64,000 bases of DNA. Origin: Synechococcus sp. JA-2-3B'a(2-13) (GTDB taxonomy: Bacteria > Cyanobacteriota > Cyanobacteriia > Thermostichales > Thermostichaceae). Made by a program: the position numbers and the translations under genes. This document shows positions 19,086 to 49,665 of the stretch, in pieces; within the stretch, counting starts at the first letter, position 1, and each line of letters opens with the position of its first letter. The DNA is taken from contig NC_007776.1 in NCBI RefSeq assembly GCF_000013225.1, positions 515,277 through 579,276 of the forward strand, in the 5' to 3' direction. The notes under the pieces are model-generated. The model was given only the letters and a program-made list of their open reading frames with translations. It did no database searches and was not told the origin of the DNA.

Positions 19086-20237
19086 TTGAGAGCGGCGATG
19101 GCAACAACAGACGTGACGGCGATGGCAACAACAGACGTGACGGTGGTGGTGAAGATCGGCACCTCCAGCCTGACAGATACTCAGACCGGCTTGTTGCGTC
19201 TTTCGGTGTTGGGGCCGCTGGTGGAGGTGCTGACCCACCTGCGCAGGCAGGGGTATGCGGTGATCTTGGTCTCCTCTGGGGCGGTGGGGGTGGGCTGTGC
19301 TCGCCTTGGCTGGCGGCAACGACCGACGGCTATTGCCGAGAAGCAGGCGGTGGCTGCGGTGGGACAGGGGCGGTTGATCCGCCTTTACGATGACCTCTTC
19401 TCGGCTCTGAACCAGCCAATTGCCCAAGTGCTGCTCACCCGCGGCGATCTGGTGGAGCGCAGCCGCTACGTGAACGCCAATCGCACTTTTGCCCAACTGC
19501 TGCAGATGGGGGTTATTCCCATCGTCAATGAAAACGACACGGTGGCAGTGGAGGAGCTGAAATTCGGCGATAACGACTCGCTTTCGGCGTTAGTGGCCAG
19601 CATGGTGCAGGCCAAGTGGCTTATCCTGCTCACCGATGTGGACAAGCTCTATTCGGCTGACCCCAACCGAGATCCCTCTGCCCAGCCCATTGAGCGGGTG
19701 TTGCCCGGGATCCCGCTACAGGTGAAGGCCGAAGCCCAGGGGAAAAGCGGCTGGGGCACCGGCGGCATGGCCACCAAACTGACCGCTGCTCAAATTGCTA
19801 CAGCTGCAGGGGTAACGGTGGTGATCACCAATGGCAAACGGCCTGAGCAGATCCCGGCAATTCTGGCCGGCGAGGCCATCGGCACCCGCTTTGATCCGGC
19901 TCCTCAGCCCGCCAGCGCCCGCAAGCGATGGATTGCCTACGGCCTCATCCCCGAGGGATCTTTGACTTTGGATGAGGGGGCGGTACGAGCGGTGTGCGAG
20001 CAAGGGCGCTCGCTGTTGCCGGCAGGGATCACAGCCATTTCTGGGGAGTTTGAGGCGGGGGCTGCCGTGCGCCTGTGCGATCCCAGCGGCCAGGAGGTGG
20101 CGCGGGGCCTGGTGAACTACAGCGCCGAGGAGCTGCGGCAGATTAAGGGCAAAAAAACCGCCGAGATTCCCCGCATCCTGGGCTACGAAGGGGTTGATAC
20201 TGCCGTCCACCGGGATAACTTGGCCTTGCTCAATTGA
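19086..20237 (+). CDS. proB: Glutamate 5-kinase
   Basis: About 380 residues. It phosphorylates glutamate in the first step of proline synthesis. Amino-acid-kinase motifs are [21 protein letters not shown] and [17 protein letters not shown]; a C-terminal PUA domain spans about 285-365. TTG 19086 stands 5 nt after GGGAGG and is the best-supported start. ATGs at 19098 and 19122 belong to a 24-bp tandem duplication (23/24 identical) that repeats MATTDVT, so the N-terminus is duplicated. An IS605-type element ends 67 nt upstream, so the native promoter may have been displaced. Confidence 0.93.
19098..19145 (+). repeat. 24-bp tandem duplication at proB start
   Basis: The unit beginning ATGGCAACAACAGACGTGAC occurs at 19098 and again at 19122, differing at one base. 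It duplicates a start codon and eight codons. It is unrelated in sequence to the hairpin repeat family. Confidence 0.9.
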
Positions 20238-43070: not shown

Positions 43071-43685
43071 ATGATCGCGTTTTTAAGCGGCCACCTTGTG
43101 GCCATCGAATGGGGAGAGCGCAGCAGCCTCACCGTTGAGGTGCAGGGGATCGGCTATCGCGTCAAGGCCCCAGGACGTTTTCTCAAGCAACTGCCCGCAG
43201 TGGGGGAGCCCGTCCGGGTGTTCACCCATTTGGTGGTGCGAGAGACCGAGCTGGTGTTGTACGGGTTTGGCTCGCCAGCCGAGCGCGATTTGTTTGTGGA
43301 ACTCATCAAAGTCTCAGGGGTGGGGCCGGCTTTGGGCTTGGCCCTGCTGAATACCTTCGGCCTGCCGGAGCTGGTGCAGGCGGTGGTGACCGAAAATGTG
43401 CGCCTGCTCTCCCTCACGCCGGGGGTAGGCCATAAAACGGCCCAACGGCTGGCCTTGGAGCTGAAAACCAAGCTGGCCCACTGGCGACAGGGGATGGGGG
43501 TTGCGGATCAACCCTTGGCCGGGGGGCCGCCCATGCCCATCCGAGAAGAGGTGGAAATGGCCTTACTGGCCCTGGGCTACAGCACTCAGGAAATTCAGGC
43601 TGCCTTGCAAGCTCTGCCCACCCACCCCCGCCCAACGGAAGACTGGCTGCGGGATGCCATCACCTACCTGAGCCAGCAGCCATGA
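43071..43685 (+). CDS. ruvA: Holliday junction DNA helicase subunit RuvA
   Basis: 204 residues. Binds four-way junctions and recruits RuvB for branch migration. Domain I starts MIAFLSGHLVAIEW; helix-hairpin-helix motifs are LIKVSGVGPALGLALL and LLSLTPGVGHKTAQRLALEL; domain III (EEVEMALLALGYSTQEIQAAL) contacts RuvB. The stop overlaps the nadD start (ATGA), indicating coupled translation. ruvB is not nearby, as usual in cyanobacteria. Confidence 0.96.
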   Translation: MIAFLSGHLVAIEWGERSSLTVEVQGIGYRVKAPGRFLKQLPAVGEPVRVFTHLVVRETELVLYGFGSPAERDLFVELIKVSGVGPALGLALLNTFGLPELVQAVVTENVRLLSLTPGVGHKTAQRLALELKTKLAHWRQGMGVADQPLAGGPPMPIREEVEMALLALGYSTQEIQAALQALPTHPRPTEDWLRDAITYLSQQP

Positions 43686-44290
43686 AGCACCGCCGCATTG
43701 CCATTCTGGGTGGAACCTTCAACCCTGTACACCACGGCCATTTGATCATGGCAGAACAAGCTCTTTGGCAGTTTGACCTGGATCAGGTGCTGTGGATGCC
43801 GGCAGGGGATCCCCCCCACAAGCCTCTGGCCCCTGGCGCCAGCAAAGCCGACCGCTTGGCGATGGTCAAGCTGGCCATTGCCGACCACGAGCGCTTCGCC
43901 TGCTCAGAGCTGGAGATCCGCCGTTCGGGGCGCTCCTACACCATCGAGACACTGCGCACCCTCATCCAGGAGCAACCCAATACCCAGTGGTACTGGATCA
44001 TCGGCGTGGATGCTCTGCGGGACCTGCCCCAGTGGTATCAAGCGGAAGAACTGGCCCGCCTCTGCCATTGGATTGTTGCCCCACGGGTGGATGCCGGCGA
44101 TGCCGCCCAGGTGCTGCAGGCGGTGGCCGCAAAGCTGCCCATCCAAGCCCAAATCCTGGAAGCCCCTACCCTGACGCTCTCTTCCACCTACCTGCGACAG
44201 CAAATCCAAAAGGGAGGGTCTATCCGCTACCTGGTGCCCCCTGCTGTGGAGCACTATATCCGTCAGCACCGCCTCTATCTGCAGCCCTAA
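43682..44290 (+). CDS. nadD: Nicotinate-nucleotide adenylyltransferase
   Basis: 202 residues. Transfers AMP to nicotinate mononucleotide in NAD synthesis. The nucleotidyltransferase motif GGTFNPVHHGHL and the C-terminal STYLRQQI (ISxTxIR equivalent) are present. It overlaps ruvA by 4 nt. A GC hairpin follows 9 nt after the stop. Confidence 0.95.
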   Translation: MKHRRIAILGGTFNPVHHGHLIMAEQALWQFDLDQVLWMPAGDPPHKPLAPGASKADRLAMVKLAIADHERFACSELEIRRSGRSYTIETLRTLIQEQPNTQWYWIIGVDALRDLPQWYQAEELARLCHWIVAPRVDAGDAAQVLQAVAAKLPIQAQILEAPTLTLSSTYLRQQIQKGGSIRYLVPPAVEHYIRQHRLYLQP

Positions 44291-44299
44291 AGGAAAAAA

Positions 44300-44315
44300 G
44301 GGGGCGGATCCCCCC
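44300..44315. terminator. GC hairpin after nadD
   Basis: GGGGG (44300-44304) pairs with CCCCC (44310-44314). It has a run of six A before it, so on the minus strand it reads as hairpin plus TTTTTT; on the plus strand only TCT follows. It may insulate nadD from the adjacent IS in either direction. Confidence 0.4.
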
Positions 44316-44329
44316 TCTAGAATCACCAA

Positions 44330-45610
44330 ATTTTCGGGCTGGAGGCCCGCACCATAGCCGCAGGCTTGGTGTCGGGAGGAAAGCCCGCCTCCATATAGGT
44401 TTGCTGGTCAAAGCCTGGATGAGCTACAATAAGCCCATGAGCCAGACTATATCCGTACGTTGCAAGCTGATAGTCCCACAAGAGTTGCGTCAAGAAATTG
44501 ACCGCACCTTGCAGAGATTTGCTGACGCTTGTAACCAGATCTTGGATACCGCCAAGCGCGAGAAGTGCTGGAACACCGCCAAGCTGCACCACTTGGTCTA
44601 TCGACCGGTAAGAGCAGCAACGGGGCTGAAAGCCAACCACGTCTGTCAGGCGCTCCGTCGGGTGATTAGCAACGCCAAGGCGGTGAAGCAAGTCCACAGG
44701 TTCCGCCCCACCAGTCTGACTTTGGACGCTCGTACTTTTAAGTACCGAGAGTCCGACCAAACCGTGGGCGTGACCCTGATGAGCGGACGGGTTTGGCTCA
44801 AGCTCAAGATTGGCGGCTATCAAATCGCTTTGCTGCGGGGGCAGAAGCCGACAAGCGCAACCCTGTCCAAGACCAAGCAAGGGGACTACTACATCAACAT
44901 CGCTGTTGAGCTGGATACTCCCCCGACTGGCAAAACTCCAAAGGTAATCGGAGTTGACTTGGGCAGGCGGGATATCGCCACCGCTAGCAACGGACGCTCT
45001 TGGAGTGGAGAGCACATCCAGGCCGTCCGTGACCGGTTCAGCCGTGTACGCGCCAAGGTTCAATCCAAACGCACTCGCAGCTCTAGGAGACTGCTGAGAA
45101 GGCTCTCTGGGAGAGAACGGCGCTACCAGACATGGCTGAACCATAACATCAGCAAAACCTTGGTCAGGGATGCCCAGGCTATTGGTGCGGCACTGGCTTT
45201 TGAAGACTTGACAGGCATCAGAGATTGCCTGAATCAGAAGTCTCGAAGTAAGGCTGAGCGGCGCAGGACTAACAACTGGGCGTTCTACCAGCTCAGGATG
45301 TTTGTAGCCTACAAGGCTGCCATTGCCGGAGTGCCTGTGGTGCTGGTGCCGCCTGCCTACACCAGTCAGACCTGCCACAAATGCCTGCACATCCACCCTG
45401 AGCGGGGTAAGTCCTACCGCAATGGCAAGTCGTTCAAGTGTGGACACTGCGGGTGGGAAGGGGATGCTGACCATAACGCTGCTCAAGTAATCTCTCTCCT
45501 TGGGGCGACTGTAAACTCGCCTGAAATTCCGAAACTTAGCTGTCCTCTGGGGCCGCTAGGGATTGGGATAAAGCTCGCACCCTGCACATAGCGCGGGTGT
45601 CGGGTAGTTT
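44330..45610 (+). mobile_element. tnpB-only IS element (copy 3, different subgroup)
   Basis: Limits are approximate. Left and right flanks share CATAGC...GGTGTCGGG (44353-44380 and 45586-45604) and a GGGC-TGGA-GCCC hairpin is near 44335, as expected for subterminal structures. GGATCC is absent from 44313 to 46225. No TnpA gene is present. Confidence 0.6.
44437..45591 (+). CDS. tnpB: TnpB-family nuclease (OrfB, third type)
   Basis: 384 residues. RuvC-I Asp in IGVDLGRRDIATAS, RuvC-II Glu in AFEDLTGIRD, zinc ribbon CHKCLHI...CGHCGW, and RuvC-III Asp in GDADHNAAQVI are all present, so it looks intact. It is more similar in layout to the MSQTISVRCKL-type proteins of IS1341-like elements than to the other two TnpB here. 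ATG 44437 is taken; an ATG at 44419 is in frame. Confidence 0.92.
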   Translation: MSQTISVRCKLIVPQELRQEIDRTLQRFADACNQILDTAKREKCWNTAKLHHLVYRPVRAATGLKANHVCQALRRVISNAKAVKQVHRFRPTSLTLDARTFKYRESDQTVGVTLMSGRVWLKLKIGGYQIALLRGQKPTSATLSKTKQGDYYINIAVELDTPPTGKTPKVIGVDLGRRDIATASNGRSWSGEHIQAVRDRFSRVRAKVQSKRTRSSRRLLRRLSGRERRYQTWLNHNISKTLVRDAQAIGAALAFEDLTGIRDCLNQKSRSKAERRRTNNWAFYQLRMFVAYKAAIAGVPVVLVPPAYTSQTCHKCLHIHPERGKSYRNGKSFKCGHCGWEGDADHNAAQVISLLGATVNSPEIPKLSCPLGPLGIGIKLAPCT

Positions 45611-45762: not shown

Positions 45763-46011
45763 TCAGTAGGCTAAGCCCATGCTGCGGGTGGTTTCGGGGC
45801 CAAGGTAGACTCGGATGCTCAGAAAATCGGTGGGACAAGCGGTTTCACAGCGTTTGCAGCCAACGCAGTCTTCGGTGCGGGGAGCGGCAGCGATCATGCC
45901 AGCCTTGTTGTTCCCCTTCCAGGGCACCATCTCCAACACGTCGGTGGGACAAGCCCGCACACACTGAGTGCAGCCGATGCAGGTGTCGTAGATCTTGACC
46001 GAGTGAGCCAT
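45763..46011 (-). CDS. psaC: Photosystem I iron-sulfur centre subunit PsaC
   Basis: 82 residues. Carries clusters FA and FB at the stromal side of photosystem I and passes electrons to ferredoxin. Both CxxCxxCxxxCP motifs are intact ([12 protein letters not shown] and [12 protein letters not shown]). Canonical PsaC is 81 residues with VPWDGCKA in the loop between clusters; here the loop is [11 protein letters not shown], one residue longer and without the non-ligand Cys. GGAG lies 8 nt before the ATG. Monocistronic. Confidence 0.97.
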
Positions 46012-46630: not shown

Positions 46631-46993
46631 CTAACTGTCCGCCGACCGTTGGGGCTCCTGGGAGTCTTGCTGCATGCCCAAGCGTTGTTTGACCTGTCTG
46701 ATCACCTTCTGGTGAGAGCGGTTTTCCAGCCTGTTCAGGCCGATGGCGCCGGCCAGGATCCCCAACTGCAAGGCCAAGCTGGGCAAGGTGGTGTTCAAGT
46801 CCCGTCCCGCCAGGGCTCGAAAGAAAAACACAAACGCCCCGATGGTAGCCGAGAACCCCACCGCCAAGTAGATGAAGCGCCGCAAGCTGCGGTAGGGAGC
46901 GGCCAGCTCCGTCAACAGCCTCACCTGCTCTGCTGAAGAGGGATCCCGGCGTTGCGACAGGGGCGATCTTGGCTTGGGATCGGAGTCTGCCAT
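46631..46993 (-). CDS. DUF3493-type membrane protein (photosystem-associated family)
   Basis: 120 residues, two membrane helices. The block ELAAPYRSLRRFIYLAVG followed by FFFRALAGRDL is the DUF3493 signature found in cyanobacteria and plastids, where related plant proteins assist photosystem II accumulation. It starts 3 nt after the ccmP stop, so the two are translated from one mRNA. Confidence 0.75.
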   Translation of the reverse strand: MADSDPKPRSPLSQRRDPSSAEQVRLLTELAAPYRSLRRFIYLAVGFSATIGAFVFFFRALAGRDLNTTLPSLALQLGILAGAIGLNRLENRSHQKVIRQVKQRLGMQQDSQEPQRSADS

Positions 46994-46996
46994 TGG

Positions 46997-47638
46997 CTAC
47001 ACCTCCTCAGGCAACAAGAGGGGCTCCCGACCGGAAACCCCCGCCAAGACGGCTTCGGCAGCGCGGCAGGCGGCCAGAATATCTCGCTCTTCCCCTCCCA
47101 AGTACACGCGGCCAAAGCTACCGAAAGGCATCACCTCCAGGATGTTGATCTGGGCAGATTTTTCTGCCTCGTTGGCAGCCAGGGGGGCATAGCCTGCCGG
47201 TTGCACCTCCAGGATGTAGAGGGTTTGGCCGGCCAGGAGCATTTGGCCACGGCGGGAACGGTTAATCAACTGGGTTTGGTGGGGATCGATGTTGCGGATG
47301 ATCTGGCTGGAGATGATGCGGGGCTTGAGGCGCTCCTGTTCGCTCACCCCCAAGGCAGCCAGAATCGCCCGTCCGGCGGTGCGGGTATCCCCTTGGTTGC
47401 TGGAGTGTACTTCCAGAAGGCCGTAGAGGCGTTCCACCACCTGCAGCCCCGGCCTCACCGAGGTGGCCTTCAGGGCAATATCCATAACGCGGTTGATCTC
47501 GATGCCGGGGGAAATCTCGACCCACAAAGAAGTGTCCCCAGGCAGGGGCAAAAAGCCGTAGGCTACTGTGCCCAGATAAGCAGCATACTGGGGTTGCAGC
47601 CGATCCAAAAACACGTAACTGCGAAGGTCGATCCCCAA
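46997..47638 (-). CDS. ccmP: Carboxysome shell protein CcmP (tandem BMC)
   Basis: 213 residues, two tandem circularly permuted BMC domains (about 1-105 and 106-205), each with a YGLLEV/LYILEV-type strand. The first is marked by IGIELRSYV-like [14 protein letters not shown], the second by [15 protein letters not shown]. CcmP forms stacked pseudohexamers with a gated pore in beta-carboxysomes. It sits apart from any ccmKLMNO cluster, as is usual, and is followed by the DUF3493 gene. Confidence 0.93.
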
Positions 47639-47773: not shown

Positions 47774-49075
47774 CTACAGATCGCCCTGAGCCACCACCTT
47801 CACCGTTGTCAGGGCTTCCACGTCGATGGGCCCGCGCACGTGCAGCCGCTGGGTAGAAATGCCCAAAGACAGGTCGCGAAACGCTCCCAACGTGGGGATC
47901 CCAGCTCCCCGGCCTGCCGAGAGGGGGGAAGTGTTGATGTGGATCAGGGCGGCATCTACTTCCTGGAGAAAGCGCTGGGCCGCCGATTGGCTATCGGTGA
48001 GGATCGTCTCCGATTGACGGCAACCATTTTTGTTAATCCAGGCGATCGCCTCCGTCAGGTCGGCAATGGGCTGCAGGCGCAGATGAGGTCGTTCTGTCGA
48101 GTCAAAGCCTTGCCCAAGCGGCTGGAGCTGCGGGAACTGCTCTAGGATGGGTGCTGCTGCCTGTACAGCGATCCCGTGACCCAGCAAGTCCTCCACCAAG
48201 GCGGTCAGATGGTTGGCGGCCCAATCGGTGTGGATCAGCAGCCAAAGGGTGAGGGGCTGATAGATAGGGATCCCTTCTGAGCCATACTGGGCGAGGGGAT
48301 CCAACAAAACCGACTTGACCAAAGGCCAAGGGGCGGTGCGATCCAGATAGATGTGGCCGTAGCCCAAATGGGTAGCCAGAGTCGGCACTTTGCTGGCCTG
48401 CAACAGGAACTCCACCCAGCCGGGGCGACCGCAGGGAATCACCAGGTCTAGGTAGCGGGTTTGCTGTAACAACGGCAATAGTGGGGAATCTACTTGGGGA
48501 TCTGCGGTTCGGTCTTGGGCGGGCAAGGTTTGAATGGCTCCTTCCGGGATCCCGTGCTCGTAAGCCGTCTCTGCCAACAGGTTGACCATAGCCTGGTGGG
48601 TTTTCTGGATGGGACCGCTGCTGGCCAAAATCACGCCGTTTCCCGCTTTTAAGCACATGCCAATGCCATTTAGGGCAAACTCGGGGTAGATTTCATAGAC
48701 CAGAGCGATCAACCCCAACGGGACGCGGTAGCGGCCAATAAACAGGCCGTTCTCCTGGCGGTGCCCTTTCTCCAGCTTGCCAATGGGATCCGGCTGCTGG
48801 GCCAGGAGAGTCAGCAACTGGGCGGATCGCTGTAGGCGCTCGGGGGTGAGCTTCAGGCCGTTGAGGATCCACTCCGGTACGGTTTGCTCGCGGCAACTTT
48901 CCAGGTCGAGGGTATTGGCTTCCAGGAGCAGATCGGAGCGCTCCAACAAACACCGCGAGAGAGCCAGCAGGGCCTGGCGCTTGGTTTGGCTGCTCAACCG
49001 CTGCATCTGCGGTAGTAAGCGGCGTACCTGTCGCAGAGTGGTACCTAAGTCAAAGTCTGAACCGAAATCTGTCAC
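47774..49075 (-). CDS. proA: Gamma-glutamyl phosphate reductase homologue, atypical
   Basis: 433 residues, full length for ProA, which reduces glutamyl phosphate to the semialdehyde. Fold-defining blocks are present: GLIALVYEIYPEFALNGIGMCLKAGN, HLGYGHIYLDR and the C-terminal GISTQRLHVRGPIDVEALTTVK. However, the catalytic segment, normally TQRPxVCNAxETLLVH, reads EGIPIYQPLTLWLLIH and has no Cys. It may therefore be a divergent paralogue without reductase activity. proB lies far away at 19086. The start is the first ATG. Confidence 0.8.
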   Translation of the reverse strand: MTDFGSDFDLGTTLRQVRRLLPQMQRLSSQTKRQALLALSRCLLERSDLLLEANTLDLESCREQTVPEWILNGLKLTPERLQRSAQLLTLLAQQPDPIGKLEKGHRQENGLFIGRYRVPLGLIALVYEIYPEFALNGIGMCLKAGNGVILASSGPIQKTHQAMVNLLAETAYEHGIPEGAIQTLPAQDRTADPQVDSPLLPLLQQTRYLDLVIPCGRPGWVEFLLQASKVPTLATHLGYGHIYLDRTAPWPLVKSVLLDPLAQYGSEGIPIYQPLTLWLLIHTDWAANHLTALVEDLLGHGIAVQAAAPILEQFPQLQPLGQGFDSTERPHLRLQPIADLTEAIAWINKNGCRQSETILTDSQSAAQRFLQEVDAALIHINTSPLSAGRGAGIPTLGAFRDLSLGISTQRLHVRGPIDVEALTTVKVVAQGDL

Positions 49076-49212: not shown

Positions 49213-49665
49213 TCAGGGCCGCCGCAGCAGCAGGATCGCCGTTACCATCAGCAGCGTTAGCAACAAGCCGAGAATCATGAACCAACTGAGCAACTGGGTT
49301 TGGTTTGGGAAGAGCACTGCGCCGATGAACCCAACCGCCAAGACAATGCCCAAGCTGAGGGTGAGGCCCAAGAGCGCGGATCCCTGTAGGGTGTTTTCCC
49401 GCCGCAACACCCATTGGTAGCCGTTCCAGAACCACATTTTGCGATAGGGATAAGAAACGGCCAGTTGCTCGATGTACAGGCGGTCGGGGGTAATGGCAAA
49501 AATATGCTGGCAACGGCTACACCCAAAGGCTTCGGTTAGGGTGATCAGGCGCAACTGACCTTGATGGCAGCACGGGCAGGGGTAAATTTTGGCGGGCTCA
49601 AGGGTCTGAGCGACACGCGGGGCTGAGTTTTGACGGGGAGACTTGCGGGGAGAAGAGAAGGCCAC
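49213..49665 (-). CDS. Zinc-ribbon membrane protein, hypothetical
   Basis: 150 residues. An N-terminal zinc ribbon (CPCCHQG...CSRCQ) is followed by an amphipathic WFWNGYQW segment and two membrane helices (LLGLTLSLGIVLAVGFIGAV, FMILGLLLTLLMVTAILLL). Cyanobacteria encode such small proteins widely; the function is unknown to me. Confidence 0.7.
   Translation of the reverse strand: MAFSSPRKSPRQNSAPRVAQTLEPAKIYPCPCCHQGQLRLITLTEAFGCSRCQHIFAITPDRLYIEQLAVSYPYRKMWFWNGYQWVLRRENTLQGSALLGLTLSLGIVLAVGFIGAVLFPNQTQLLSWFMILGLLLTLLMVTAILLLRRP

Follow-up and report, generated by a model that had tools for sequence, protein, structure and literature searches.

A cysteine-less ProA homologue found through most of the cyanobacteria, probably retained as a non-catalytic protein beside a membrane zinc-ribbon gene

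What does a protein with the fold of gamma-glutamyl phosphate reductase (GPR, ProA) do once the residue that carries its chemistry is missing? The question is raised by a gene in a 64,000-nucleotide stretch of the Synechococcus sp. JA-2-3B'a(2-13) genome (NC_007776.1, positions 515,277 to 579,276; the window hereafter), whose features are collected in Table 1. In GPR, a cysteine nucleophile attacks the acyl phosphate to form a thioacyl enzyme intermediate (PMC8963878), and of the usual ALDH triad ALDH18A1 has this cysteine alone (PMC10650815). Because the thioacyl step needs the cysteine, and because both it and neighbouring invariants are gone from the window protein, the latter should not be a GPR; with no GPR chemistry expected, we read it as a putative pseudoenzyme with a conserved binding role.

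Table 1. The cysteine-less proA gene of the window, its neighbours and proB (positions are those of the window)
Feature	Position	Strand	Remarks
Cys-less ProA (GPR fold)	47774-49075	-	433 aa; GTG start; open frame
IYQPLTLWLLIH, replacing the catalytic VCN(A)xETLLVH segment	48230-48265	-	residues 271-282; aligned with active ProAs
Membrane zinc-ribbon protein	49213-49665	-	150 aa; CPCC...GCSRC; predicted membrane helices 93-118 and 123-147; 137 bp upstream of Cys-less proA
ccmP (beta-carboxysome shell)	46997-47638	-	downstream of Cys-less proA
DUF3493 / low-PSII-accumulation-like gene	46631-46993	-	downstream, same strand as Cys-less proA
Normal ProB	~19140-20225	+	~27 kb from the Cys-less gene, unlinked

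The initial annotation held that the segment bearing the catalytic cysteine had been replaced while the rest of the fold and the length were kept, and both statements are borne out. Where active ProAs read (V/A)CN-A-x-E-x-L-L-(V/I)H, the window protein has IYQPLTLWLLIH, which aligns with YPAACNAIETLLVH of another ProA in the same genome and with RPSVCNAAEKLLVH of the Gloeobacter ProA; none of its five cysteines (residues 42, 61, 141, 215 and 352) falls in the catalytic column, and the second invariant cysteine of active ProAs, that of GNCH, has become Gly240. A relocated catalytic cysteine was considered and rejected on the same alignment, in which Cys215 occupies the invariant Arg of IPRG. 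The missing residue does not stem from a sequencing error, since five more genomes from the genus lack it as well, as do three more distant relatives. An AlphaFold2 model built on an alignment of 28 relatives adopts the GPR fold (pLDDT 83.8, pTM 0.82), with pLDDT <50 at residues 267-274, where the active-site loop used to be, and also at 387-400; its nearest PDB structures are the GPRs of T. maritima (1o20, the best match, TM ~0.80) and E. coli, and the ALDH18/GPR fold and homology extend over the full length. ProA models are the best-scoring families of the protein, which nevertheless falls below both of their cut-offs (251 bits against 289 for NF001221; 221 against 317 for TIGR00407). The catalytic cysteine, equivalog-level scores and about a dozen other ProA invariants, the marks of a functional ProA, are all missing from it.

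This is a feature of most of the class and not a single local case. Most of the 291 genomes searched in the class contain two ProA homologues, and the set extracted from them comprises 77 window-type copies, 9 from Gloeobacterales and 34 of normal ProA, the labels Gloeobacterales and Thermosynechococcus denoting what we take to be the assignments of these genomes. The catalytic cysteine is present in 34/34 normal and 9/9 Gloeobacterales copies and absent from 77/77 window-type copies, which are spread over the cyanobacterial families. Most of these read PDPVNAIEKVL in place of the cysteine loop and those of Thermosynechococcus type PDRALAIEKVI; the Thermostichales, the group of the window, lack even the PDxVNAIEK motif. 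A scan of a collection of named genomes gave 80 loci, every one of them cyanobacterial and lacking the cysteine. This count is not independent evidence of the loss because the cysteine-less motif was among the scan patterns; the names and the gene order are independent. The copies of one Thermosynechococcus-type genus (L112, L113, L114) are extremely divergent, with a branch of 2.8 changes per site and lengths of 357-391 aa, and still adjoin a zinc-ribbon gene despite this divergence.

The initial annotation was right that the cysteine segment had changed, but the change is larger than the cysteine, about a dozen further ProA invariants having been replaced. Compared over 84 columns conserved to at least 90% in 69 active ProAs (numbered along the E. 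coli ORF, starting at the stop codon that precedes it), the cysteine-less clade has lost R74, R131, R190, R209, H235, K255, C262, E321, T379, D383, G384, E392 and T397, whereas the residues it keeps (N54, D57, P119, G121, E128, P131, N146, G216, N381 and G415, window numbering) are mainly structural. Several substitutes are themselves near-invariant within the clade: W for R74, Y for R209, Y for H235, V for C262, P for T379 and R for D383. Such clade-specific invariants point to a new constraint, as though the active site had been rebuilt and not merely eroded. The Thermostichales have kept some of the clade invariants (R217, T55, T77 and R80) and lost others. Within the window's genus, dN/dS is 0.055-0.127 for the cysteine-less gene and 0.040-0.119 for normal proA; purifying selection thus persists despite loss of the catalytic residue, a combination taken here as the mark of a pseudoenzyme. 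The long branches and the very divergent Thermosynechococcus-type copies might suggest a decaying pseudogene, or an artefact of sequencing, but open frames, dN/dS of ~0.1, conservation across families and a conserved operon speak against either, and the selection and conservation data refute this explanation, whose probability we regard as negligible.

The same selection and the same new invariants would also suit a protein that is still an enzyme, acting together with the zinc-ribbon protein on another substrate or by a chemistry that dispenses with a Cys302-type nucleophile (hydride transfer, or another Cys or Lys). The typical clade offers candidate residues, namely the Lys just after the motif (NAIEK) and the retained GNC cysteine, and outside the Thermostichales the Rossmann domain preserves much of its glycine-rich KGGSEA region, so that to judge from sequence a nucleotide may still be bound there. 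The window's branch, however, remains under strong selection although NAIEK, the KGG motif and the GNC cysteine are all missing from it, and several invariants are gone, among them E321, which aligns with what is presumably the nicotinamide-ribose Glu of ALDHs. We consider a surviving enzyme unlikely.

How, then, does the cell make proline? The initial annotation had proposed either that another ProA serves proline synthesis or that the protein has changed function, and had suggested a search for a second proA. The source genome (one contig of 3,046,682 bases) does encode one at G000:C1:853143-854507, a normal, cysteine-bearing ProA that carries YPAACNAIETLLVH and passes the NCBI ProA cut-offs. 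With a normal ProA and a normal ProB in the same genome, proline synthesis is independent of the window protein. The changed function is well supported in its turn, by the loss of the cysteine in every sampled copy, the separate clade, purifying selection and the new invariants; the more specific suggestion of a regulator or ProB partner found no support, proB being unlinked and the conserved neighbour being the membrane zinc-ribbon gene. Considered more broadly, a proline-synthesis subunit or regulator, bound to ProB or to normal ProA and tuning or channelling gamma-glutamyl phosphate, would fit the homology to oligomeric GPR, the substrate channelling proposed for fused P5CS filaments (PMC8963878), and the response of Synechocystis to nitrogen starvation, which raises both sll0461 and sll0373, the two genes called proA and treated there as glutamate-to-proline enzymes (PMC12386471). 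It would also fit two genomes of family f17 without the cysteine-less protein, in which the zinc-ribbon gene lies ~43 bp upstream of a normal, cysteine-bearing proA (G049:C8:98101-99846, L142; G085:C66:44877-46613, L317). Set against this, apart from the unlinked proB, are the small-genome marine-type lineages (family f3), which have proB and normal proA but not the cysteine-less protein, and genome G142, which retains that protein though normal ProA is absent; such a role appears quite unlikely.

In three genomes (G142:C1, L316; G066; G226), the only ProA match is the cysteine-less one. Both G142, a complete genome, and G066 have a good proB match and lack normal ProA, and the chief sign of a possible surviving role connected with proline comes from G142, which leaves a residual ProA function in that genome conceivable. 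A slow GPR, in which a shifted loop brings another Cys or water to do the chemistry, could draw on these two genomes, on the conservation of fold and length, and on the invariance of Cys215 in the window's branch. But the cysteine and about a dozen invariants are absent from all sampled copies, Cys215 stands where active ProAs have an invariant Arg and the other clade members a Tyr, and normal ProA is kept in nearly all genomes, which together make this the kind of explanation we would accept only with great surprise.

The gene that regularly accompanies the cysteine-less one lies directly upstream. The family encoded there is ~140 aa long and has at least four cysteines, arranged as a CPxC or CPC knuckle and a GCxxC knuckle, a pattern that suggests zinc binding; two membrane helices are predicted in 77/79 copies. 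The gene lies directly upstream at 70/77 cysteine-less loci, as it does in the window, at 8/9 Gloeobacterales loci and at 1/34 normal proA loci, always on the strand of the ProA gene when adjacent and with a median gap of 13 bp; in the named genomes, it is adjacent at 78/80 cysteine-less loci. Since the Gloeobacterales carry the same operon with a cysteine-bearing ProA, the operon is older than the loss of the cysteine. The family occurs in 54/64 Cyanobacteriia and 0/82 non-photosynthetic relatives, and the small-genome marine-type f3 lacks both it and the cysteine-less ProA. The pairing is strong but not obligate: seven of the 77 cysteine-less loci have no adjacent zinc-ribbon gene (L067, L068, L029 and L053 among them), including two Synechococcus elongatus-type genomes, and conversely family f17 and part of f13 have the gene but not the cysteine-less protein.

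Profile comparison assigned the zinc-ribbon protein to no Pfam or NCBIfam family, and a fold search with its model gave no significant PDB match. The partner and one paralogue have weak, sub-threshold similarity to DUF2396 / TIGR02652, below the family cut-offs, and the ProA-linked type itself is not a named family. Most cyanobacterial genomes hold one zinc-ribbon paralogue besides the ProA-linked type; in Gloeobacterales, paralogous membrane zinc-ribbon proteins of 165-180 aa are found in other contexts (L312, L313, L314, L315), one of them with weak DUF2396 similarity. Two other associations were considered and set aside: a carboxysome link through the downstream ccmP, a neighbour seen in the window's genus only, and an association with lumazine synthase, whose gene ribH, identified by eye, lies ~0.9 kb upstream in 22 loci as a matter of synteny only and is absent from the window. 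Elsewhere in the window, a long ORF at 43792-45591 (+), read from a GTG inside nadD (43682-44290), has a C-terminal part that looks by eye like an IS605-type TnpB, and a psaC-like ORF, likewise recognised by eye, lies at 45763-46011 (-).

An alignment of ProA from deep-branching cyanobacteria had also been proposed; the Gloeobacterales protein, the single ProA of that group, keeps its cysteine and groups beside the cysteine-less clade. In a quick tree of 96 ProAs (SH-aLRT support only), the 47 cysteine-less sequences, the window protein included, fall on one side of a single branch (SH-aLRT 99), and a further split (97) separates them together with the Gloeobacterales ProA from 22 outgroup and 18 normal cyanobacterial ProAs; the latter join haloarchaea, Peptoclostridium and part of the non-photosynthetic Cyanobacteriota (100). 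BLAST agrees with the tree in distinguishing two ProA types, the Gloeobacter ProA being ~54% identical to Firmicutes ProA and the normal cyanobacterial ProA ~53% identical to haloarchaeal ProA. The cysteine-less branches are long and their placement could reflect long-branch attraction, but it gains independent support from the synteny common to the Gloeobacterales and the cysteine-less loci. The most parsimonious history is that the old proA stayed in place, that a proA of a second lineage arrived or was already there, and that the old copy lost its chemistry.

We posit that the window protein is a displaced ancient ProA retained as a non-catalytic protein, probably with the zinc-ribbon membrane protein as its partner, and regard this as the likely explanation. 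The cysteine-less gene would be the original proA of cyanobacteria, passed down vertically; once the Gloeobacterales had split off, a second, haloarchaeal-type proA would have taken over proline synthesis, and the old protein would then have lost its nucleophile and most invariants of the substrate and cofactor sites while its ALDH fold and its gene's position behind the membrane zinc-ribbon gene were kept. What remains would be a soluble ALDH-fold pseudoenzyme subunit that serves as a scaffold or sensor; its partner would probably be the co-encoded membrane protein, and it may still bind a nucleotide. The parts of this proposal differ in strength. The missing cysteine, the separate descent, the operon, the purifying selection and the new invariants are direct results of the analysis. 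Loss of GPR chemistry in the clade is well supported, the likely absence of activity being deduced from the residues replaced, and the function almost certainly differs from the reaction that databases assign. From gene order alone we infer physical binding to the zinc-ribbon protein, and the protein may sense a ligand. More tentatively, ProA may have given up catalysis after the Gloeobacterales split and become a module that signals a metabolite or redox state while docked on a membrane zinc-ribbon protein specific to the lineage, a possibility that deserves attention though not yet belief. If it is true, a two-protein system runs through most of the class, masked by the label glutamate-5-semialdehyde dehydrogenase.

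That label is easily acquired. Two typical cysteine-less ProAs score 322 and 340 against NF001221 (PRK00197; cut-off 289) and pass it, though not TIGR00407, and typical members would accordingly be named glutamate-5-semialdehyde dehydrogenase. An equivalog model thus names proteins that lack the catalytic residue, and many cyanobacteria are credited with two proline enzymes when they probably have one. The literature searched, with subscription journals mostly outside it, contained no report of the missing cysteine or of the zinc-ribbon operon. That a protein stripped of its chemistry has been strongly selected across most of the cyanobacterial radiation suggests a basic function that nobody has named, and the retained operon, the displaced enzyme and the cysteine-bearing relatives in Gloeobacterales make a clean, testable case of displacement followed by repurposing.

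Among known systems, ProA/GPR itself (TIGR00407, PRK00197; PDB 1o20, 8zok) is the closest, sharing fold, length and whole-chain homology, and the Gloeobacterales relatives look like ordinary ProA; the cysteine-less clade differs from it in the catalytic cysteine and about a dozen more invariants, and the window protein in falling short of both NCBI cut-offs. The GPR domain of P5CS (ALDH18A1; PDB 7f5t) is the same domain with the same fold, but its nucleophilic Cys is present and a kinase domain is fused to it. Human ALDH16A1 is a pseudoenzyme that has the ALDH fold without the catalytic residues and is thought to act by protein interaction (PMC10650815), although it belongs to another ALDH subfamily and has no zinc-ribbon operon partner. 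ALDH pseudoenzymes are already known; what is new here is the conservation of a probable one through most of a bacterial class, together with an operon partner of its own.
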